A stretch of DNA of 22,988 nucleotides. Origin: a virus. Below, piece after piece: positions 1 through 22,988 of this stretch. The notes under the pieces were generated by a model. That model searched no databases. It saw only the letters and a program-made list of their open reading frames with translations, and had not been told where the DNA came from. The DNA lies in IMG/VR virus record IMGVR_UViG_3300023199_000139, positions 1 through 22,988 of that record. One strand, 5' to 3'. The position numbers and the translations under genes are program-made. Each line of letters starts with the position of its first letter. Position 1 is the first letter of the stretch.

Positions 1-104
1 AGCCGCCCGGCCTCGAGATCGAGCGCCAGATGCGTGGCGATCAGCGCCGCGCCGCCCGCGGCCAGATGGCGCGACAGCGCCGCCGCCACCAGCCCCGCCG
101 AGGC
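1..104 (-). pseudogene. ccmA: C-terminal fragment of CcmA-like ABC transporter ATPase
   Basis: Read on the minus strand from 104 to the window edge the frame gives about 34 residues beginning ASAGLVAAALSRHLAAGG and containing ALIATH. That is the D-loop to H-loop end of CcmA, the ATPase that with CcmB takes part in cytochrome c maturation at the inner membrane; the His of ATH would be the H-loop. Immediately upstream is an in-frame TAA (105-107), and the Walker A, signature and Walker B parts that should precede it are absent. The frame has no plausible start. I infer a host gene interrupted at the edge of the element. The match rests on a short segment, so another ABC ATPase is possible. Confidence 0.6.
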
Positions 105-106
105 TT

Positions 107-126
107 AGCGAACGAAACGCTTTACA
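107..126 (+). promoter_or_regulatory. Possible operator/promoter of the early operon
   Basis: A short inverted repeat, AGCG-N7-CGCT (107-121), is followed by TTTACA (121-126), which could serve as a -35 element. The only -10 candidate at normal spacing (144-149) is poor. It lies between the ccmA break and the first early gene, where the operon promoter is expected. The word GAACGAA inside it recurs at the att region and upstream of the terminase. This is a weak call. Confidence 0.2.
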
Positions 127-181
127 AAACGTCCGCAGTATGCGTTCATCCTCGCCCGAGGATGCGACCACGGAGAACGAC

Positions 182-460
182 ATGCCCGACCCCGAGACGA
201 CCCGCACGCTGGAACAGGCCTGCCGGCTTGCCCGGCCGGTGATCCGGCGCGAGCTGGCGCTCTACCTGCGCTACCTGACGATCGATTGCCCGCCCGAGCG
301 GCTCAATCAGATGCTCTGGGACGATATGGCGCCACGGATCGACGCGCTCGAGGCGCTCGACGCCGCCCTCGGCCCGACGCGGGACGAGTGGTCCGGAACG
401 CTCGAGGCCTGCCTGCCGCACCGCCCCGCCGCGACGGCAGATCAGGAGGCGTCGGGATGA
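182..460 (+). CDS. Small hypothetical protein, first early-operon gene
   Basis: This is a 92-residue acidic, mostly helical-looking protein (MPDPETTRTLEQACRL...) that I do not recognise. The ATG at 182 was chosen because GGAGA lies just before it; an in-frame ATG at 140 has no ribosome site. Composition is coding-like, with strong G/C at third positions. It ends in ATGA (457-460), so a start overlaps its stop, but that frame closes after only 22 codons. It is the first gene of a rightward cluster ending in the integrase, which suggests an early or lysogeny-related accessory role; that is inference only. No signal peptide or membrane segment is seen. Confidence 0.6.
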   Translation: MPDPETTRTLEQACRLARPVIRRELALYLRYLTIDCPPERLNQMLWDDMAPRIDALEALDAALGPTRDEWSGTLEACLPHRPAATADQEASG

Positions 461-677
461 CGGCGCCCGCCACATCGCGCGGGAGTCCGAGCGCCATGAC
501 GGCGCCAATGTCGCTGCCGCCATGAACCTGCTGCGCGACAGTGACAGCCCGGGCGACCGCGCGCGCGCCGACGCGCTCGCGGATCAGGCAGGACGGGTTG
601 GCGTGACGGGCCGGCGGATCGGACAGGGAGAGGTCGATTACGCCCGCTCGCGGGCGTCACCTGCACAGGAGGATCAC

Positions 678-1043
678 ATGAGAGACACCGACAAGGCCAC
701 ATTCAAGGCCACATTGATCGCGCTGGACGACTTTGTCTCGGGCGTCCGGCGCGTCGGCCCCGAGCGCGTCCGGGATCTGATCGCGCAGCACGAGGATGAG
801 CTCGCGGACGGGCTGGGCCAGGACATGCCGCCCGACGCGGGCGTGCTCCTCGGGCTGCTCTCCACGGCGCTCGATATTCTCCAGGGCTGGCAGGAGGACG
901 GCGCCGATCGCGTGGTGCTGACGGCCAATCTCGATCGCGGCGAAAGCGCGCTGTTTCAGTGCCGTGGCGACGCGCCGAGGGACGCCGAGTATCTGCGCAT
1001 GATGCACCGCGCCGTGGACAGCATCGCGGGAGCGGCGGAATGA
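678..1043 (+). CDS. Hypothetical early phage protein, 121 aa
   Basis: The protein starts MRDTDKATFKATLIALDDF and is unrecognised. It looks helical, with an acidic mid-part and a leucine-rich stretch (LLGLLSTALDILQGW). The ATG at 678 has a strong Shine-Dalgarno (AGGAGG at about 667-672, spacing 5). The same frame is open upstream through an ATG at 522 and keeps high third-position GC from about 456, so the 217 bp between 461 and 677 may hold an N-terminal extension or the remains of a gene; no well-supported start is visible there. It is coupled to the next gene by an ATGA overlap. Confidence 0.65.
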   Translation: MRDTDKATFKATLIALDDFVSGVRRVGPERVRDLIAQHEDELADGLGQDMPPDAGVLLGLLSTALDILQGWQEDGADRVVLTANLDRGESALFQCRGDAPRDAEYLRMMHRAVDSIAGAAE

Positions 1044-1318
1044 CGGGGCCCCACCACTGCCCCGCCACGCGCTCCCCCGGCTTCCGCCAGCTCGGCGAGG
1101 TCATGGAGGGCATCTCCGACGCAGCGCAGATCGGCCTCGCCCACGGCCTCGACCGTGCCGTCGCCGCGATCGACGAGATGATCGTCGAGGCCGAGGCGCA
1201 GGCGGATTTCGCGGAGCGCTGCGGGCTGCAGCCGGTGGCGCAGCGCCGACAGGACCGTGCGCGCGCCCTGCGCGACGCCCGGTCGGCCATCGAAGCACGA
1301 CGGGAGGAGGATCGATGA
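1040..1318 (+). CDS. Hypothetical early protein with AAIDEMIVEAEA motif
   Basis: This is a 92-residue protein, MTGPHHCPATRSPGFRQL..., charged and alpha-helical in its second half. The ATG at 1040 overlaps the upstream TGA (ATGA), so it is probably translated by coupling. Residues about 41-53 contain AAIDEMIVEAEA, encoded by a 36-bp stretch that recurs exactly in the next gene. The function is unknown. Position and length suggest a small phage accessory protein of the integrase operon. No DNA-binding motif is obvious. Confidence 0.65.
   Translation: MTGPHHCPATRSPGFRQLGEVMEGISDAAQIGLAHGLDRAVAAIDEMIVEAEAQADFAERCGLQPVAQRRQDRARALRDARSAIEARREEDR
1163..1198 (+). repeat. 36-bp direct repeat, copy 1
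   Basis: The sequence from GCCGCGATCG to GGCCGAGGCG is identical to 1558-1593. Both copies are read in the same frame and encode AAIDEMIVEAEA in two neighbouring proteins. Confidence 0.95.
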
Positions 1319-1623
1319 CACGGCAGATCGGCGGTTTCGGCGAGCAGCTGCTCGCGCGGTTCGGCGGCGGGCCGGCGCGGATGCGCCTGCATGCCGAGGC
1401 GGACGCGGCCCTCGAGCGTGCCGGCGGCGAGCGCGAGGCGGCGCTGGCCGCGTTCGAGCGCGCGGTGCACGCCCACGCCCACGCCATGCGACTGATGGCA
1501 AAGGCGCTGATCCGCGACGTCTGGCGGGCCGAGCGGGGGCTGCCGCCACGACGTCCGGCCGCGATCGACGAGATGATCGTCGAGGCCGAGGCGGCGCCTC
1601 GGTCCGGGGCCAGCGCCGGCTAG
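1315..1623 (+). CDS. Hypothetical early protein, helical, repeats the AAIDEMIVEAEA motif
   Basis: This is a 102-residue protein starting MTRQIGGFGEQLLARFGG, with a long Ala/Glu/Arg-rich helix (about 20-60) that could form a coiled coil. Its ATG overlaps the preceding TGA. Near the C terminus AAIDEMIVEAEA repeats the motif of the upstream gene, with identical DNA over 36 bp, while the rest of the two proteins differs. I do not recognise the family. It ends at a TAG four bases before the next small gene. Confidence 0.6.
   Translation: MTRQIGGFGEQLLARFGGGPARMRLHAEADAALERAGGEREAALAAFERAVHAHAHAMRLMAKALIRDVWRAERGLPPRRPAAIDEMIVEAEAAPRSGASAG
1558..1593 (+). repeat. 36-bp direct repeat, copy 2
   Basis: Exact copy of 1163-1198, in the same reading frame, in the 3' part of the 102-residue gene. 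Confidence 0.95.
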
Positions 1624-1627
1624 CGCC

Positions 1628-1795
1628 ATGCCCACGCCGCGCGTCGAGACAATCCAGCGCCGGATCAGGGCACTTGAGGCCGCGGGCTACGTCGTGCGGC
1701 GCGTCGCGGCCGACGGGTCGATCGAGGTTGCCAAGCGCGGCCAGGACGGAGAGGATACAGACGAGCTGGCGCTGATCGACATGAGGCGACGATGA
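1628..1795 (+). CDS. 55-aa basic protein upstream of integrase (possible directionality factor)
   Basis: A small frame encodes MPTPRVETIQRRIRALEAAG, then YVVRRVAADG and an acidic stretch ending DMRRR. It starts four bases after the upstream TAG, and its stop overlaps the integrase ATG (ATGA at 1792-1795), so it is held in the operon on both sides. The N-terminal half is a basic helix, followed by what looks like a short beta hairpin. Its size, charge and place just before int fit an excisionase or recombination directionality factor, but no winged-helix signature is clear and a plain hypothetical is equally possible. Confidence 0.6.
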   Translation: MPTPRVETIQRRIRALEAAGYVVRRVAADGSIEVAKRGQDGEDTDELALIDMRRR

Positions 1796-2766
1796 AGCGG
1801 GATCTGCCGCGCTACGTCTACCGCAAGCCCGGCGGGCTCTATTTCTGGCGCCGCCCCGGCGCGGCCGTGAAGATGCAGGCGGAGCCTTTAACAGACGCCT
1901 GGTGGGCCGAATACGCGCTTCTCCTGAAGGGCACGCCGCCGCCGCCGAAGGGCAAGACGTTCCGCGCGCTCATCGCCTCCTACCGGCGCAGCGACCGCTA
2001 CACGCGCCGCGCGCCCCGCACGCGACGCGACTACGACAAGGTGCTGACCTTCCTCGAGGACAGGCTCGGCAGCCAGGATCCGACCCGGGTCGCGCGCCAT
2101 CACGTTGTCGGCTGGCGCGATCAGAACAGCGGGCGATTCGCCGACTACCTGGTGCAGGTGCTGCGCGTGCTGTTCGAGCACGCGATCGACCAGGGCTGGC
2201 GCGACGACAACCCGGCCAAGGGCGTGCGGGCCACCTACCGCCCGAGCGGGCGGCGCAAGCCCTGGCCCGACGACCTGGTCGCGGCCGCGCGCGCGACGGC
2301 CACCGGCGAAACGCTGGTGCTGTTCGAGCTGCTTGTCGGCACCGGCCAGCGCGTCGGCGACGTGCTGCGCATGCGCTGGGCCGACATCGCCGGCGACGCG
2401 ATCCATGTCGGCCAGTCCAAGACCGGCGCCGAGCTTTGGGTGCCCTTCACCGCCCGGCTGCGCGAGACGCTGCGAAGGGCCCCGAGGCGGGGCGAGACGA
2501 TCCTGACCAGTAAGCGCGGCGGGCCGCTGTCCTACCGCGCCGCCGCCGACAGGATGCGCAAGCTGCGCGCGGCCATCGGCGCCGGCGAGGCGCACGACAC
2601 GCACGCCCTGCGCTACACGACAACGGCCGAGCTGGCCGCGCTCGGCTGCGACGACGACCTCATCATGGCCGTCACCGGCCACCGCTCGCAGGCAATGGTC
2701 GCGAAATATGCCGGCGCGGCCCGGCAGCAGGTGCGCGCCATCGAGGCGCAGAATCGCCGGAACTGA
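1792..2766 (+). CDS. int: Tyrosine recombinase / phage integrase
   Basis: This 324-residue site-specific recombinase would catalyse integration and excision at the adjacent tRNA-Cys site. The N-terminal part (about 1-55) looks like an arm-binding domain and about 56-145 like the core-binding SAM-like domain. The catalytic domain runs from about 155 to the end. Visible active-site residues are Arg187 (TGQRVGD), Lys210 (QSKTG), His271 and Arg274 (HALRY), His297 (TGHRS) and the nucleophile Tyr306 (AKYAG), so the enzyme looks intact. The ATG overlaps the stop of the 55-aa gene. The 3' end points at attP 80 bp away, the usual int-att arrangement. Confidence 0.95.
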   Translation: MKRDLPRYVYRKPGGLYFWRRPGAAVKMQAEPLTDAWWAEYALLLKGTPPPPKGKTFRALIASYRRSDRYTRRAPRTRRDYDKVLTFLEDRLGSQDPTRVARHHVVGWRDQNSGRFADYLVQVLRVLFEHAIDQGWRDDNPAKGVRATYRPSGRRKPWPDDLVAAARATATGETLVLFELLVGTGQRVGDVLRMRWADIAGDAIHVGQSKTGAELWVPFTARLRETLRRAPRRGETILTSKRGGPLSYRAAADRMRKLRAAIGAGEAHDTHALRYTTTAELAALGCDDDLIMAVTGHRSQAMVAKYAGAARQQVRAIEAQNRRN

Positions 2767-2796
2767 CCGCCGGAACGAACGGGGCACGAACAGGAA

Positions 2797-2817
2797 CTTG
2801 TGCCACCGCTTGTGCCA
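2797..2817 (+). repeat. Paired CTTGTGCCA words, candidate integrase arm sites
   Basis: CTTGTGCCA occurs at 2797-2805 and 2809-2817, a 12-bp period. A close variant, ACTGTGCCA, lies on the other side of the tRNA fragment at 2962-2970. Short direct repeats flanking a core site are typical of arm-type binding sites for tyrosine integrases. The first copy also pairs with GGCAC at 2783-2787 in an inverted arrangement. Confidence 0.4.
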
Positions 2818-2846
2818 GATGCTGCGCCGGATCGCCTAAATCATTG

Positions 2847-2891
2847 AGGCGAGTGCGGGATTCGAACCCGCGTAGACGGATTTGCAATCCG
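2847..2891 (-). other. attP: attP: 3' half of tRNA-Cys (GCA)
   Basis: Read on the minus strand, this gives the anticodon stem-loop with GCA, the variable loop, a perfect T-arm around GGTTCGAATCC and the acceptor strand CACTCGCCT: the 3' half of tRNA-Cys. No D-arm or 5' acceptor strand (expected GGCGAG) lies upstream, that is to the right, and the genome-encoded CCA is replaced by CAA. It is therefore an attachment site, not a working tRNA gene. The acceptor end faces the integrase, which is the phage-borne (attP) orientation. A small inverted repeat, TCGCCT/AGGCGA, spans 2832-2852. Confidence 0.85.
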
Positions 2892-3094
2892 GCATGATGA
2901 TCAATAGTTTCAATTTGTTAGCGTGCCCCGCGGCGCTGGACGGAAAGCGAACGAAACGGGAACTGTGCCAGCATACATGCCGGCCAGCGTCACGCCATTC
3001 TGAGAGCCGGACAACCGGCGCGGATGCACCAACGGGGCCTGGAAGCAGTCGCTCATACCGAATCGAGTTCGCACGACCGTCGAGCGCGCCCTCG
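2892..3094. other. Non-coding spacer between attP and repeat array
   Basis: I see no credible gene here. Its first part (to about 2960) is less GC-rich than the rest of the window, and it contains one arm-like word (2962-2970) and one GAACGAA word (2949-2955). Open frames crossing it run through the tRNA fragment or the repeats and look accidental. It probably contains the outer arm of attP. Confidence 0.5.
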
Positions 3095-3263
3095 AGCCTA
3101 GCAGAAGAAGCGGCGCGGCCAAACCCGGACCCGACTGAGAGCGATGCTGCCTGCTACCTGAAGCCTAGCAGAAGAAGCGGCGCGGCCAAACCCGGACACG
3201 GCTGCCCAGGCGCCTCAACCGGGCCGGAGCCTAGCAGAAGAAGCGGCGCGGCCAAACCCGGAC
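3095..3263 (-). CRISPR. Mini CRISPR-like array: three 36-bp repeats, two unique spacers
   Basis: Three perfectly identical 36-bp units lie at 3095-3130, 3162-3197 and 3228-3263. They are separated by 31 bp (3131-3161) and 30 bp (3198-3227) that do not resemble each other. On the minus strand the unit begins GTCCGGGTTTGG and ends TCTGCTAGGCT. A 36/30 geometry is standard for several CRISPR types, and as I recall it, alphaproteobacterial type II-C repeats are 36 nt with a similar GCTAnnCT end. No cas gene or tracrRNA is visible. The first minus-strand repeat starts directly after the stop of the last late gene, with no leader. The unit lengths (67 and 66) are out of frame with each other, which argues against a coding repeat. 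A non-CRISPR intergenic repeat cannot be excluded. Confidence 0.5.
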
Positions 3264-3539
3264 CTACCTTCCCGTGACCAGATACACCGACGCGCCGACG
3301 ATGGCGGCGATCAGCATCCGAACGCCCCATTCGGACTCGCCCATCTTGGCGCCGCGTCGGGCGCCCTCGACCTCGATCGCCTGCACGCGACCCTGCAGGG
3401 CGCGCAGATCCTCGCCGGTCTTCCGCTCCATCTGGATGTTCTGCGCCAGCCGCTCCTCGACCATCGCCAGCTTCTCGACCGCCTTCATGAGCGCCTCGAG
3501 GCGCCGCTCGACCGATTCGTGCCACTGCTCGTCGGTCAT
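3264..3539 (-). CDS. XhlA-like small coiled-coil membrane protein
   Basis: This is a 91-residue protein, MTDEQWHESVERRLEALM..., with a heptad-like charged N-terminal helix region (about 5-62) and one hydrophobic C-terminal segment (about 72-88, WGVRMLIAAIVGASVYLV). That layout matches the XhlA/haemolysin-type phage proteins that assist holins at the inner membrane. The ATG at 3539 was chosen for its GGGAGG ribosome site at spacing 5; an in-frame ATG at 3551 lacks one. It is the last late gene. No separate classical holin is seen in the window, so this may supply that role. The TAG stop abuts the repeat array. Confidence 0.65.
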   Translation of the reverse strand: MTDEQWHESVERRLEALMKAVEKLAMVEERLAQNIQMERKTGEDLRALQGRVQAIEVEGARRGAKMGESEWGVRMLIAAIVGASVYLVTGR

Positions 3540-3553
3540 CCGGCCTCCCATGC

Positions 3554-3994
3554 CTAGAGCCCCAGCGCCGCCGGCGGCGCCGGGGCGGTGCCATCCTCGA
3601 TCCGCACGACGTCGAACTCCACGTCCAGCGCCGCCAGGCGCCGGCGCCCGCCCTCGACGTCGACGCGCGTGCCGGCGGGCACCAGGTCGGCCAGAAGGCC
3701 GCCCATCCGCTCCGGCGCCGCCATGATGGCCTCGATGGCGCTGTCGGCGGCCGCCTCCATGTCGGCGCGCGCGCTCGCCGGGTCGGGCGCCGCCCAGAGC
3801 CGCACGGTCAGCCTGCCCGAGAGCTGCCAGCCGCCGCGCTGCGCCCGCGGCTCGGCCTCGTCCATCTCCAGCTCGACGGCAAAGGCCGGCAACCCCGATT
3901 CCGGCGCCGCCGCCGCCTCGCCCGTGCGGTCGGCGGCGTTCGGCCAGGCGCCGGCGAGCCGCGCGCGCGCCTCGGCGACCACCGCCGCGCTCAC
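3554..3994 (-). CDS. gpU-like tail terminator protein
   Basis: This is a 146-residue protein. After an N-terminal helix (VVAEARARLAGAW) come LPAFAVELEMDEAEP, WQLSGRLTVRLWA, a helical segment, VPAGTRVDVEGG and LDVEFDVVRI, the strand-helix order of lambda gpU and similar tail terminators, which cap the growing tail tube. Similarity is by pattern, not strong identity. It starts at GTG (3994), overlapping the upstream TGA (GTGA). Its place after the tail fibres is unusual: terminators normally precede the tube gene, and none is seen between the FII-like and tube genes here, so this is likely the missing one. Confidence 0.5.
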   Translation of the reverse strand: MSAAVVAEARARLAGAWPNAADRTGEAAAAPESGLPAFAVELEMDEAEPRAQRGGWQLSGRLTVRLWAAPDPASARADMEAAADSAIEAIMAAPERMGGLLADLVPAGTRVDVEGGRRRLAALDVEFDVVRIEDGTAPAPPAALGL

Positions 3995-4683
3995 ACCGGC
4001 GCCTCGGGGCGCATGGCGGTGACGCCCAGGCGCAGCGTCCCGCCGGTGAAGTTGCCGCCATTGGCGGTGACGATCACGTCCTCGGCCGAGAACGCGTTGT
4101 AGGTCGAGAGCCCGACATTCGAGCTGCCGACGGCGGTGCCGAGGGAGCCGCCGAACTGCGCGGTGGCGCCGGACCGGCCCACGTCATAGCTGCTCGCGCC
4201 GGTGACCTCCGCCGTCACCCAGGAGGTGACCGCGACGACGAGCGTCCGCGCGGGCAGGAGCCCCGAGGCGGTCACGCTCGCGCCCGACAGCCCGGACAGC
4301 TCCGCCTCGACCTGGACGAGCCCCGCGCTCGACCCGAAGGCGCCGGCCACCGCGCCGCGCCGCCAGGCGGCGCCGTCATGCACCCGCTCGGCTGCCTCGT
4401 CCGCGACGAACAGCCGCCAGCCGCGCGCAGGCGTCGCGAAATGCCAGATGCCGCCCGTGCGCACCGCGACGTCGCCCTCGGCGCCGCCGCCCCAGCCCGT
4501 TGGCGCGGCCGGGAGGATGTAGACATCGCCCTCGGCCGGGCTCGCCGGCGCCGCCGCCACCGTCGCCGAGATGGCCGCGCCGCCCAGCACCGCGTCGAGG
4601 ATGTCGAGCGCGGCATTGTGCGGGACATGCGGCTGCGCCTGCCCCTCGGCCAGATACGGCAGTTGCCAGAGCGACGAGCCCAT
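3991..4683 (-). CDS. DUF2793-type tail protein with C-terminal beta domain
   Basis: This is a 230-residue protein. Residues about 5-115 (LPYLAEGQAQPHVPHNAAL..., SPAEGDVYILPA, GWRLFVADEAAERVHDGAAW) match the DUF2793 family found on alphaproteobacterial phage tails and GTA loci. Residues about 128-230 (LSGLSGASVTASGLLPA ... VIVTANGGNFTGGTLRLGV) form a beta-rich domain shared with the protein encoded just upstream. The ATG at 4683 overlaps the upstream TGA by one base; GTG at 4686 is an alternative start. The likely role is a fibre or spike part at the tail tip, by context. Confidence 0.7.
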   Translation of the reverse strand: MGSSLWQLPYLAEGQAQPHVPHNAALDILDAVLGGAAISATVAAAPASPAEGDVYILPAAPTGWGGGAEGDVAVRTGGIWHFATPARGWRLFVADEAAERVHDGAAWRRGAVAGAFGSSAGLVQVEAELSGLSGASVTASGLLPARTLVVAVTSWVTAEVTGASSYDVGRSGATAQFGGSLGTAVGSSNVGLSTYNAFSAEDVIVTANGGNFTGGTLRLGVTAMRPEAPV

Positions 4684-9524: not shown

Positions 9525-9928
9525 GGGATTGCCCAGGCGCTGGTGATCCGCCGCGGCGGCGCCGAGGTGACGACGACGCCGCGCCGCCGGTCGGCGCCGA
9601 TCAGGCCCTCTGGCAGGCGGATCGCGACATGCGCGGCGCGGCAGGCGCCGACGCGGAACAGGATCACGTCGCCCGGCTCGCCGGGCAGCGGCCGGCGCAC
9701 CAGGTGCCGGCGCAGCGCCGCCAGCAGCGGCAGCCGCGCATCGGCGTGCCAGCCCGGCCGCCAGGCCGGCGCCGGCGGCACGGCGCCGGTCAGCTCGCCG
9801 ATGATGCCCCGGACGAGCCCGACACAGTCGCACCCCGCCCCGCGCAGCGCCGCGTTCGCGTGCCAGGGCGTGCCGGCCCACCGCCGCGCCGCCGCACAGA
9901 CCTCGCCGGCGGGCCAGGGCTCACTCAT
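9512..9928 (-). CDS. NlpC/P60 tail peptidase (GTA gp14-like)
   Basis: This is a 138-residue cell-wall peptidase of the tail tip, thought to cleave peptidoglycan peptides during DNA entry. The NlpC motif GCDCVGLVRG gives the catalytic Cys35, and AAHVAIRL gives His100. LPGEPGDVILFRVG is the typical strand between them. The ATG at 9928 overlaps the gp13-like gene by 8 bp and the 3' end overlaps the megatron start, the same order as gp13-gp14-gp15 in RcGTA. Length is normal for the family. Confidence 0.9.
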   Translation of the reverse strand: MSEPWPAGEVCAAARRWAGTPWHANAALRGAGCDCVGLVRGIIGELTGAVPPAPAWRPGWHADARLPLLAALRRHLVRRPLPGEPGDVILFRVGACRAAHVAIRLPEGLIGADRRRGVVVTSAPPRRITSAWAIPWRR

Positions 9929-20166: not shown

Positions 20167-22254
20167 TCACCATTTCCGCCTGGGCCGCTTCACGACCCAT
20201 CCCCGCTCCGCTTCTGGCGCCGGCGGTGCCGCGCCGTCGCCCCCGCCCGGGCCCGTCGCCATCAGGTTGCCCGCGCCCGGGCGTGCCCAGTCGGGCGGCG
20301 CCTCCCAGTCGATCGCCTCGGCCTCCATCGCGACGGCCAGCGCCAGCGTGTAGACCGACAGGTCCAGAGCCTCGTTGCGCGCCACCCCCGGGCGCGCCTC
20401 CCATCCCTTCACGCCGCGCCGCTCGGCCGCGTATTCCGCGAACATCTCCCCGGGCGCGCCGCGCGGGACGTGCAGCTTGCGCGCGCCCGCGTCCCGGCGC
20501 AGGAGCGCCGCGGCCACCTCGTCCTTCAGCCGGTCGATGCCCGCGCGCAGGACCGGGAGGTCGCGCGCCGCCGGCCGCCTGCGGCTGCCATGCGCCCGTT
20601 CGGGATACTGGACCTTCGCGCGCGGCGCGCTCTCGCCGGGCACGCCCATCACCAGGTGAAAGCGCCGGGGCCAGCGCAGCGCCGAGGCCCGCCAGTACGC
20701 CTGCGCGTTCGGCGTCACCCCCGCCTCGCCGCGCATGTCGCAGACGATGCCGGCCGCCCGCAGGGCGTGATCGCTCCCGGTCACCGGCCAGCTCCGATCG
20801 AACAGCGCGTCCAGCGCCGCCCAGTCCTCGGCATACCGCGCCGGGTCGATGCGCCGCTCACCGCCCGGCGCGCCCTCGGGCGGGCTGACCAAATCGAAGC
20901 GATCGATGACGACGCGCTCCAGCCCCGGCAGGAACGCTTCGGCCTGGACGACGAAGCGGCCGACCTGCACGTCGACGCCGACCAGGATGAACGCCGTCCG
21001 CGCCGGCGCCTCCTGCCAGGGATGATCGGTCGCGCCACCGCGCAGCGCATCCTCGTGCAGCCCGGCACCTTGCAGCCGCGCTTTCGGCAGGTAGGGCAGG
21101 CCCAGCTCGACATTCGTGACCGAGCGCAGCGCGGCCTCGTCACCGATACGCTTGTAATGGGCATGCGCCTCGATCCAGCGCTCGGCGATCCGCGCCCAGG
21201 AGGCAAGCGCCGCCGCCGGCCCCGTGAGCAGGTAGGACACGGTCGCGACGCGCCGCGCCAGGTCGCCGATCGCCGCGGCGCTGCCATCCTCCTCCTCGTG
21301 CAGCCAGACCGCGCCTTCATTCAGCGCGCGTTTCCGGGCCGGCTCGATGACGCCGCCGCAATGCGGGCAGACCATCACCGCCTTCTCGGCGCGGCGCTGC
21401 GCGGTGCCGTCCGCGGGCCATTCCAGCCGCTCGAAGCGCGGCTCGAAGGGCGTCTCGCAGGCCGGGCAGGTCCAGTAGAGCCGCGCGCGCGTGCCGGCAT
21501 TGTAGAGCTGGACGATCCCCTCGGCCGGCGGCGCCTCGTGCGCGCTCGCCGGGCGCCAGCGCTCATCGACGATCGGGTAGCGCGGGCTCGACTCGACGAT
21601 CGTCATCCCGCGCGTGCCGGCCTGCTCGGTCCGCTTGCGCATGAGCGCGAAGGCCTGCCCGTCGCCGCCGATGTCGGCGTCGAAGGCGTCGTAGTCGGTG
21701 GCGATCACCGTGTGCAGCGACCGCTGGGCCAGCTTGTCGGGCACCGGCCAGTCCACCGTCAGCCGCGTGCCGCCGCGGAACCGCTTGGTGAACACGTTGT
21801 CGGCGCTCTTGCCGGGCGCCAGCCGCGCGCGGATCTCCGGGCTGTAGACGATGAAGGGCGAAAGCTGTCCCTCCGACCATTCCTGCGCGGCCTGCTTGCG
21901 GGGCGAGAAGACGGCCACCTTGCGCGGCTGCGCCAGAACCGCATGGGCGATCACGTTCAGCACCAGCGCCTCGGATTTCGAGGCGCGCGCCGGCCCGACG
22001 AAGACGAGGCTGTCGAAGCGCCGGCTCGTCACCTGGCGCATCGGCTCGACCATGTAGGGCGCGACATCGTTGCGCCAGGGCACCCATTGCCCGTCCGTCT
22101 CGACATTGCGCCGCGGCGCGACATCGGCGACACTGACACGCGCCTGCGGTCGCAGGGCAGGCAGGGCCTCGGCGATCGCGCCCTCGACGGCCGCGAAATC
22201 CGGCAGCGGCGCGACGTCCAGCGCCTCGCGGGCCCTGGCGGCCCCGGCGCTCAT
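20167..22254 (-). CDS. Terminase large subunit, GpA family
   Basis: This 695-residue DNA-packaging ATPase/nuclease has a Walker A-like GPARASKSE at 87-95 and a Walker B-like VIATDYDAFD around 183-192. A zinc-knuckle pair, CPAC (263-266) and CPHC (296-299), is characteristic of GpA proteins. The nuclease domain begins near ILVGVDVQVGRFVVQAE, with likely metal-binding Asp428. The protein ends in a basic tail, VVKRPRRKW. The ATG overlaps the small-terminase TGA. Length is close to lambda GpA (641). By family it would cut concatemeric DNA at cos-type sites and drive it through the portal. Confidence 0.95.
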   Translation of the reverse strand: MSAGAARAREALDVAPLPDFAAVEGAIAEALPALRPQARVSVADVAPRRNVETDGQWVPWRNDVAPYMVEPMRQVTSRRFDSLVFVGPARASKSEALVLNVIAHAVLAQPRKVAVFSPRKQAAQEWSEGQLSPFIVYSPEIRARLAPGKSADNVFTKRFRGGTRLTVDWPVPDKLAQRSLHTVIATDYDAFDADIGGDGQAFALMRKRTEQAGTRGMTIVESSPRYPIVDERWRPASAHEAPPAEGIVQLYNAGTRARLYWTCPACETPFEPRFERLEWPADGTAQRRAEKAVMVCPHCGGVIEPARKRALNEGAVWLHEEEDGSAAAIGDLARRVATVSYLLTGPAAALASWARIAERWIEAHAHYKRIGDEAALRSVTNVELGLPYLPKARLQGAGLHEDALRGGATDHPWQEAPARTAFILVGVDVQVGRFVVQAEAFLPGLERVVIDRFDLVSPPEGAPGGERRIDPARYAEDWAALDALFDRSWPVTGSDHALRAAGIVCDMRGEAGVTPNAQAYWRASALRWPRRFHLVMGVPGESAPRAKVQYPERAHGSRRRPAARDLPVLRAGIDRLKDEVAAALLRRDAGARKLHVPRGAPGEMFAEYAAERRGVKGWEARPGVARNEALDLSVYTLALAVAMEAEAIDWEAPPDWARPGAGNLMATGPGGGDGAAPPAPEAERGWVVKRPRRKW

Positions 22255-22913
22255 TCCGCGGCCACCATCGCGGCGGGATCGGGCGCGTCGTCATCGGCCG
22301 CCGGCTCCTCGCCGATCAGCTCGCCGACCGCCCGCGACGCGCCGTTCAGCGCATCGTCGCAGGCCGCCTCGATCAGCTCCACCGCCGCCCCGTCGAGCGC
22401 CAGCTCGCGCGCCAGCCGGTCGGGCAGGGCGTCCAGCGCGTCGCGCAGCGTGGCGAAGACCTCCTCGATCCCGGTGACGACATCCTCGCGCCGGATCAGC
22501 TCGCGCCGGTCGCGCGCGGCCAGGTTGCGCGCATGCTCCAGCTCCAGGAGCTCGCGCTGTTCCTTCGGAGAGAGGCGGGTCGTCGCCTCGTCCGCGCCGT
22601 CACCCAGGAGCGCGAGCTTGAGCTGGCGCGCCGCCTCGTCGCCGGCCGCGCGCTGGCGGCGATCCTCGTCGCGGCGGCGCTGCACCCAGGCATGCGCGAT
22701 CGACAGCCGGAAGCGGTATTGCCGGCCGTTCGTGCCCGCCTCCTCATAGGGCATGCCCTGCCGGACCCAGGCCGAGATCGTGGTCTGCGACGCGCCGAGC
22801 GCCATCTCGAGCTGCGCCTTGTTGACCAGCGCATCCTCGACGCCGGGCGGCAGCGGATAGGCCTCCACCATCGCCCGCTCCTCGCCCGACAGCGCCCTCA
22901 GCTCACCGCCCAT
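22251..22913 (-). CDS. Terminase small subunit, Nu1-like
   Basis: This is a 220-residue protein from the ATG at 22913. Residues about 29-80 (LVNKAQLEMALGASQTTISA then WVRQGMPYEEAG and YRFRLSIAHAWVQRRRDEDR) are the winged helix-turn-helix of Nu1-type subunits that recognise the packaging site. The rest is helical and acidic at the C terminus. An ATG at 22871 with a GAGGAG site is an alternative, shorter start. A longer frame reaching 22985 reads Gly/Phe-rich peptide from what looks like non-coding DNA. It is coupled to the large subunit through ATGA. Confidence 0.88.
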   Translation of the reverse strand: MGGELRALSGEERAMVEAYPLPPGVEDALVNKAQLEMALGASQTTISAWVRQGMPYEEAGTNGRQYRFRLSIAHAWVQRRRDEDRRQRAAGDEAARQLKLALLGDGADEATTRLSPKEQRELLELEHARNLAARDRRELIRREDVVTGIEEVFATLRDALDALPDRLARELALDGAAVELIEAACDDALNGASRAVGELIGEEPAADDDAPDPAAMVAAE

Positions 22914-22988
22914 GACCACAGCCCAAACGAAAACGAAGCCCCTGCCCCCGAACGAAAAACCCCCACGCCCCGCACCTCCGAACATGCC
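22914..22988. promoter_or_regulatory. Region upstream of terminase; possible cos/regulatory DNA
   Basis: This 75-bp stretch is rich in G-runs and TTCGTT words on the minus strand (GAACGAA at 22950-22956 and AACGAAAACGAAG at 22926-22938 on the plus strand). Its position upstream of the small terminase is where cos sites and late leader sequences usually lie. Nothing decisive can be seen before the window ends. Confidence 0.25.

Follow-up and report, generated by a model that had tools for sequence, protein, structure and literature searches.

The left edge of a linear phage contig holds a piece of a bacterial gene for cytochrome c maturation, which abuts phage DNA carrying an attachment site of its own, and the question raised by this locus is how the two came to be joined. 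The window, which here means the whole stretch of DNA that was analyzed, is a virus record classed as linear and 22,988 bases long. The explanation we favor, and consider probable, is that the window represents an incomplete, free phage related to Cronusvirus, with a cos terminus at its right end, to whose left end 104 bp of ccmA have been joined technically.

A ccmA fragment at the left edge

The features at the left edge are as follows.
1–104, minus strand: ccmA fragment (bacterial gene, 34 codons, H-loop included), which would run on past the left edge of the contig
104–107: junction where ccmA meets the phage sequence, its position known to within a few bases, with a minus-strand TAA at 107–105
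105–181, plus strand: non-coding stretch ahead of the first phage gene, holding AGCGAACGAAACG at 107–119, which recurs at 2946–2958
182–460, plus strand: first phage-side gene past the junction, 92 aa, with no relative found in searches of phage records, IMG/VR, genomes and PHROGs

Bases 1–104 are a piece of ccmA, a bacterial cytochrome c maturation gene, as the preliminary description of this DNA had proposed. Read on the minus strand from 104 to 3, they give 34 codons in a frame that is open throughout, ASAGLVAAALSRHLAAGGAALIATHLALDLEAGR. A search of NCBIfam with these 34 residues matched two families, TIGR01189 (E 0.0033, fragment residues 4–31 of 34 against profile positions 164–191 of 198) and PRK13538 (E 0.041), both of them CcmA, and no others. 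The scores stay far below the curated cut-offs (17.1 bits against 131.6 for TIGR01189, and likewise for PRK13538) because the query has only 34 residues. The piece lies near the C-terminal end of CcmA, at about residues 150–183 of about 205, and the remainder of the C terminus would lie beyond the left edge of the contig. We take it to start right behind the D-loop and to extend through the H-loop, and the NCBIfam, ccmA locus and Rhodobacterales comparisons all place it in that CcmA-type region, H-loop histidine included. The part aligned with TIGR01189, the heme ABC exporter ATP-binding protein, includes ATH, presumably the H-loop, as in the family, but the window holds this fragment only, without the N-terminal ATPase part that carries Walker A, Walker B and the signature; bases 1–104 are thus part of a ccmA gene but do not encode a CcmA protein. 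The preliminary description suggested looking at the element's far end for the N-terminal part, but none was found anywhere in the window, where a full-length CcmA profile run on 365 six-frame stretches gave no second significant match.

When 390 Rhodobacterales genomes were searched without motif selection, 236 matched the fragment at E ≤ 0.001, the best with 69% identity over 32 residues, so the comparison with Rhodobacterales ccmA that had been suggested bears out the assignment. At E ≤ 1e-4, matches were found in about 103 of the 390 (counted by hand) versus 3 of 385 genomes in a sample of the alphaproteobacterial class. A genome scan with the pattern GGAALIATH followed by I, L or M gave at least 119 stretches, and among the 80 matches listed, 78 were from Rhodobacterales, one from Sphingomonas and one from another alphaproteobacterium, as assigned from titles whose family membership we presumed. 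The motif lies inside an open frame in all 119 of these ccmA loci, and in 109 that frame also contains a Walker A motif; the best matches of the fragment to them were 69% identical over 32 residues as protein and 88% over 58 bases as DNA. A stricter ccmA pattern found 0 stretches in genomes, and in plasmids the ccmA peptide gave a single match of E 8 and window 1–182, as DNA, only six weak matches. By these comparisons, the fragment appears most like Rhodobacterales ccmA and is identical to none among the genomes sampled. Its first residues align with the “ASV” of related CcmA, and its end, HLALDLEAGR, is unusual: most relatives among the motif loci have HIDLGL or similar, and HLP occurs at this position in locus L048 and in the Sphingomonas locus L035.

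Since the stretch is short, is 80% GC and matched neither Pfam nor PDB sequences, its likeness to CcmA might be a chance resemblance of a GC-rich frame. Its GC-rich parts do resemble other DNA, with a 26-base match of 92% elsewhere inside the same phage and, at E ≤ 0.001, DNA matches in 104 of the 385 genomes of the class sample, nearly all of them short and probably GC-rich background. Chance resemblance is nevertheless scarcely credible, and was rejected, because CcmA models are the sole NCBIfam matches, the protein-level matches extend over the 236 Rhodobacterales genomes and the fragment scores 32.0 bits with a local CcmA profile against 8.8 bits for the best of 10,000 shuffles. With that profile, the runner-up to the fragment among the 365 six-frame stretches of the window had an E value of 0.5. 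The profile is biased in favor of the fragment because its loci were chosen by the fragment's own motif, a bias of which the NCBIfam and 390-genome searches are free.

The junction and the early region

The sequence changes abruptly at 104/105, where ccmA gives way to phage sequence, and the abrupt junction noted previously therefore stands. A stop had also been read where the D-loop should continue; the minus-strand TAA is indeed there, immediately upstream of the ccmA frame, but it belongs to the phage side of the junction and is not a mutation inside ccmA. The stretch 105–181 may be a leader or promoter region.

For the segment 105–460, with the first early gene, no relative was found in phage records, IMG/VR or 149 genomes, and searches with the second early gene found none either; window 1–4000 had no match in phage records. 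Of four early genes upstream of 1628 that were compared with PHROGs, three matched no family and the one at 1315–1620 had a weak transposase match (E 0.00022). The early region also contains a perfect 36-base duplication (1163–1198 = 1558–1593).

The phage, its relatives and its right end

The right part of the window contains the following features.
20167–22254, minus strand: large terminase of the lambda gpA type, closest to Cronusvirus (PF05876, E 8.2e-60)
22251–22913, minus strand: small terminase (phrog_141, E 1.2e-23)
22975–22988, minus strand: likely cos terminus, reading inward GGCATGTTCGGAGG, with a by-eye likeness to the ends of RcCronus and R4C

From the right end inward, the genes for small terminase, large terminase, endolysin-type peptidase, portal, capsid and GTA-like tail proteins are followed by attP, the integrase and the small early genes. 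The large terminase is 60.1% identical to that of Dinoroseobacter phage vB_DshS-R4C and 53.9% to those of Rhodobacter phages RcRhea, RcCronus and RcSaxon, and a search of IMG/VR with it found none. The terminase, portal, capsid and GTA-like tail genes of the Cronusvirus members R4C and RcCronus are ordered as in the window, but the integrase, which in the window sits beside attP, sits elsewhere in R4C and is unannotated in RcCronus.

The RcCronus record starts with GGTTCCTTCGCGC and the R4C record ends in GGCACTTCGGCTG, both similar by eye to the right end of the window read inward, and in a MAFFT alignment the starts of the three fall within about 10 bases. The distance from the small terminase start to the record end is 75 bases in the window, 85 in R4C and 48 in RcCronus, when the window start is set at ATG 22913, picked by comparison with the relatives, the earlier ATG 22985 being also open. 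Overhangs of 13 bases (RcCronus; PMC8601537) and 14 bases (R4C; PMC6836515), both 5′, have been reported. The right end of the window is thus likely to be a natural cos end. The left end showed no resemblance by eye to the right ends of the relatives, and was rejected as the other cos end on that ground; in tblastx comparisons with R4C and RcCronus, nothing left of 5154 appeared among the best 30 matches per record. The window has 23 kb and the linear records of these relatives 36 kb, which points to a missing stretch; the phage genome is probably cut off partway at the left edge of the contig, with about 13 kb probably absent on that side. The record would accordingly represent an incomplete, temperate cos-type siphophage related to Cronusvirus.

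It might be supposed that the genome of such a phage truly carries a piece of host ccmA beside its early region, acquired by illegitimate recombination without use of the tRNA-Cys attP, and that the contig ends inside this piece. The open frame of 34 codons with the conserved CcmA residues kept is what such carriage would show, and the Rhodobacterales-like fragment agrees with the hosts of the phage's terminase relatives, which infect Rhodobacterales. However, just 104 bases are present, exactly at the contig edge; scans of IMG/VR, which may have skipped the record of the window itself and those closest to it, found 0 stretches for the ccmA end, 0 for the ccmA motif and 0 for the phage side of the junction, and a group of virus records sharing this ccmA motif was rejected on that result; the CcmA fragment matched none of four virus records that share the integrase; and no ccmA is annotated in the R4C or RcCronus record. 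In the literature collection searched, no paper dealt with cytochrome c maturation in combination with phage and auxiliary metabolic genes. Genuine carriage seems rather unlikely to us.

The integrase, attP and tRNA-Cys

Two features define the attachment region.
1792–2766, plus strand: tyrosine integrase (PF00589, E 2.1e-22; phrog_1, E 3.6e-36)
2846–2893, minus strand: 3′ part of tRNA-Cys (attP core), a partial tRNA model match shared in L004, with phage genes on either side

The partial match to the tRNA model, at 2914–2855, scores 24.3 bits, below the gathering score of 29, and the 3′ part used as a pattern with three mismatches was found in 0 of 149 genomes. Because attP, which lacks the 5′ half of tRNA-Cys, is flanked by phage genes, being placed between the integrase and the tail genes, the molecule is in its unintegrated form and ccmA is not the flank of attP. 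The preliminary description was right, then, to find the ccmA fragment hard to reconcile with a tRNA-Cys attP.

Integrase matches at E ≤ 1e-5 were obtained in all six bacterial genomes searched, and two loci were examined. The integrase of L126 is 54% identical, and 77 bases past its 3′ end stands an intact tRNA-Cys whose own 3′ end faces the integrase, the same arrangement as in the window; in L127 (47% identical), tRNA-Cys is about 0.87 kb off, on the 5′ side. The L005 locus has the 5′ part of tRNA-Cys beside the integrase in the opposite orientation, and the IMG/VR record L003 terminates at the stop of its integrase. The L126 tRNA-Cys and the L003 end tie this integrase family to tRNA-Cys, not to ccmA, and tRNA-Cys, judging from these loci, is the family's site, with an att arrangement that varies as in L127 and L005. 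The integrase of L004, 85% identical over the best segment, belongs to a region sharing 1635–1903 and 2186–2970 with the window, att included; around 8600 it is without about 280 bases present in the window (1903–2186), although the flanks align, and is either an internally deleted integrase or the product of an assembly gap. GAACN7GAAC motifs, which we take as candidates for integrase arm sites or alphaproteobacterial LexA boxes, flank the tRNA-Cys core at 2777–2791 and 2949–2963. L004, L005 and L126 also have one such motif near the 3′ end of their integrase and L127 has none, and L003 and L004 each carry one elsewhere.

A phage contig that ends in part of a host gene, with the frame of that gene cleanly cut, looks like a prophage border, and the phage, or a rearranged copy of it, might have resided inside the ccmA of some host with the contig reaching 104 bases into that host. 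Several observations make this unlikely. The related integrase of L126 abuts tRNA-Cys, the attP of the window is internal, no tRNA core was found by eye at the ccmA junction and the right end resembles a free cos end. Nor was ccmA seen split: every match listed from the 390 Rhodobacterales genomes belonged to a frame at least 184 aa long, and the 9 of 119 motif loci with fewer than 160 residues upstream were each cut by the locus edge. Integration at ccmA by way of the tRNA-Cys attP was rejected on the internal attP and on the L126 integrase abutting tRNA-Cys.

Distance between ccmA and tRNA-Cys in bacterial genomes

The distance between the two genes was determined in 12 genomes from the 390-genome search, all with ccmA on contig C1. 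Each has a tRNA-Cys, which lies on the same contig as ccmA in 8 of the 12, 282 kb to about 2 Mb away with circularity ignored, and on a different contig in the other 4; the 119 ccmA loci, none longer than 8 kb, contained no tRNA-Cys. A separation of at least 282 kb wherever it could be measured is evidence against specialized transduction, and transduction of attB neighbors was rejected, since the host DNA is not a neighbor of attB, the att site is not a hybrid and ccmA is distant.

These distances also bear on the idea that the window is a transducing molecule, in which packaging started at cos and ran into host ccmA. The cos-like right end would suit such a molecule, and, with the direction of packaging taken from lambda, packaging from the small-terminase side would head toward ccmA. 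Given the separation of ccmA from tRNA-Cys in the 12 genomes, the 119 loci without tRNA-Cys and an intact attP, which is not what aberrant excision leaves, we regard packaged host DNA as very improbable.

A probable technical origin of the junction

The joining of ccmA to the phage by a technical error is what we consider probable. Assembly of the phage would have halted within the early region, leaving a dead end on the left, and 104 bases of bacterial ccmA would have been attached there, either because a library fragment was itself chimeric or because the assembly graph was extended wrongly. The bacterial stretch stands exactly at the contig edge, which we count in favor of this account, and a typical short read is longer than 104 bases. 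Against it we count that a mis-join in the assembly graph normally needs a shared k-mer and none was evident at the junction, that no relative was found for 105–460, and that the att arrangement varies (L127, L005) and a 13-base repeat adjoins the junction. Chimeric contigs are, moreover, an uncommon though known error, and their low base rate weighs against the account: in a study of simulated viromes, their share was usually below 2.5% of an assembled dataset and below 5% among contigs of at least 10 kb (PMC5610896). As in the chimeric contigs described there, two genomes would be combined in one contig, but the foreign part here amounts to 104 bases at one end. Among the origins offered in the preliminary description, a chimera formed in the assembly or in the library is the best fit, the packaging of host DNA from beside attB is disfavored, and no direct evidence was obtained for a second insertion or a decayed neighbor.

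If the join is technical, any claim of a phage-borne cytochrome gene, or of a host link based on ccmA, should wait until the left edge of the contig has been trimmed. If the junction were true, it would mean a phage that breaks or carries a respiration gene away from its usual attachment site.

Repeats and other features

The 13-base sequence AGCGAACGAAACG is repeated exactly beside the ccmA junction (107–119) and beside att (2946–2958). Repeats of this length are common in the GC-rich window, since in a control some 13-mer repeated elsewhere was present in 498 of 1148 stretches of 40 bases; when only 13-mers of no more than 7 G+C are considered, two longer families apart, there is no direct repeat but this pair. 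Three perfect 34-base repeats (3097–3130, 3164–3197 and 3230–3263), separated by unique spacers of 33 and 32 bases, lie in the interval from attP to the tail genes. Neither the region 2960–3300 nor either spacer had a match in phage records, and 3097–3263 may be either a very small array of CRISPR type or an intergenic element that has been reiterated. ARAGORN calls a tRNA-Ser within the tail genes, at 9643–9722 on the minus strand, which is probably a false positive in coding sequence.
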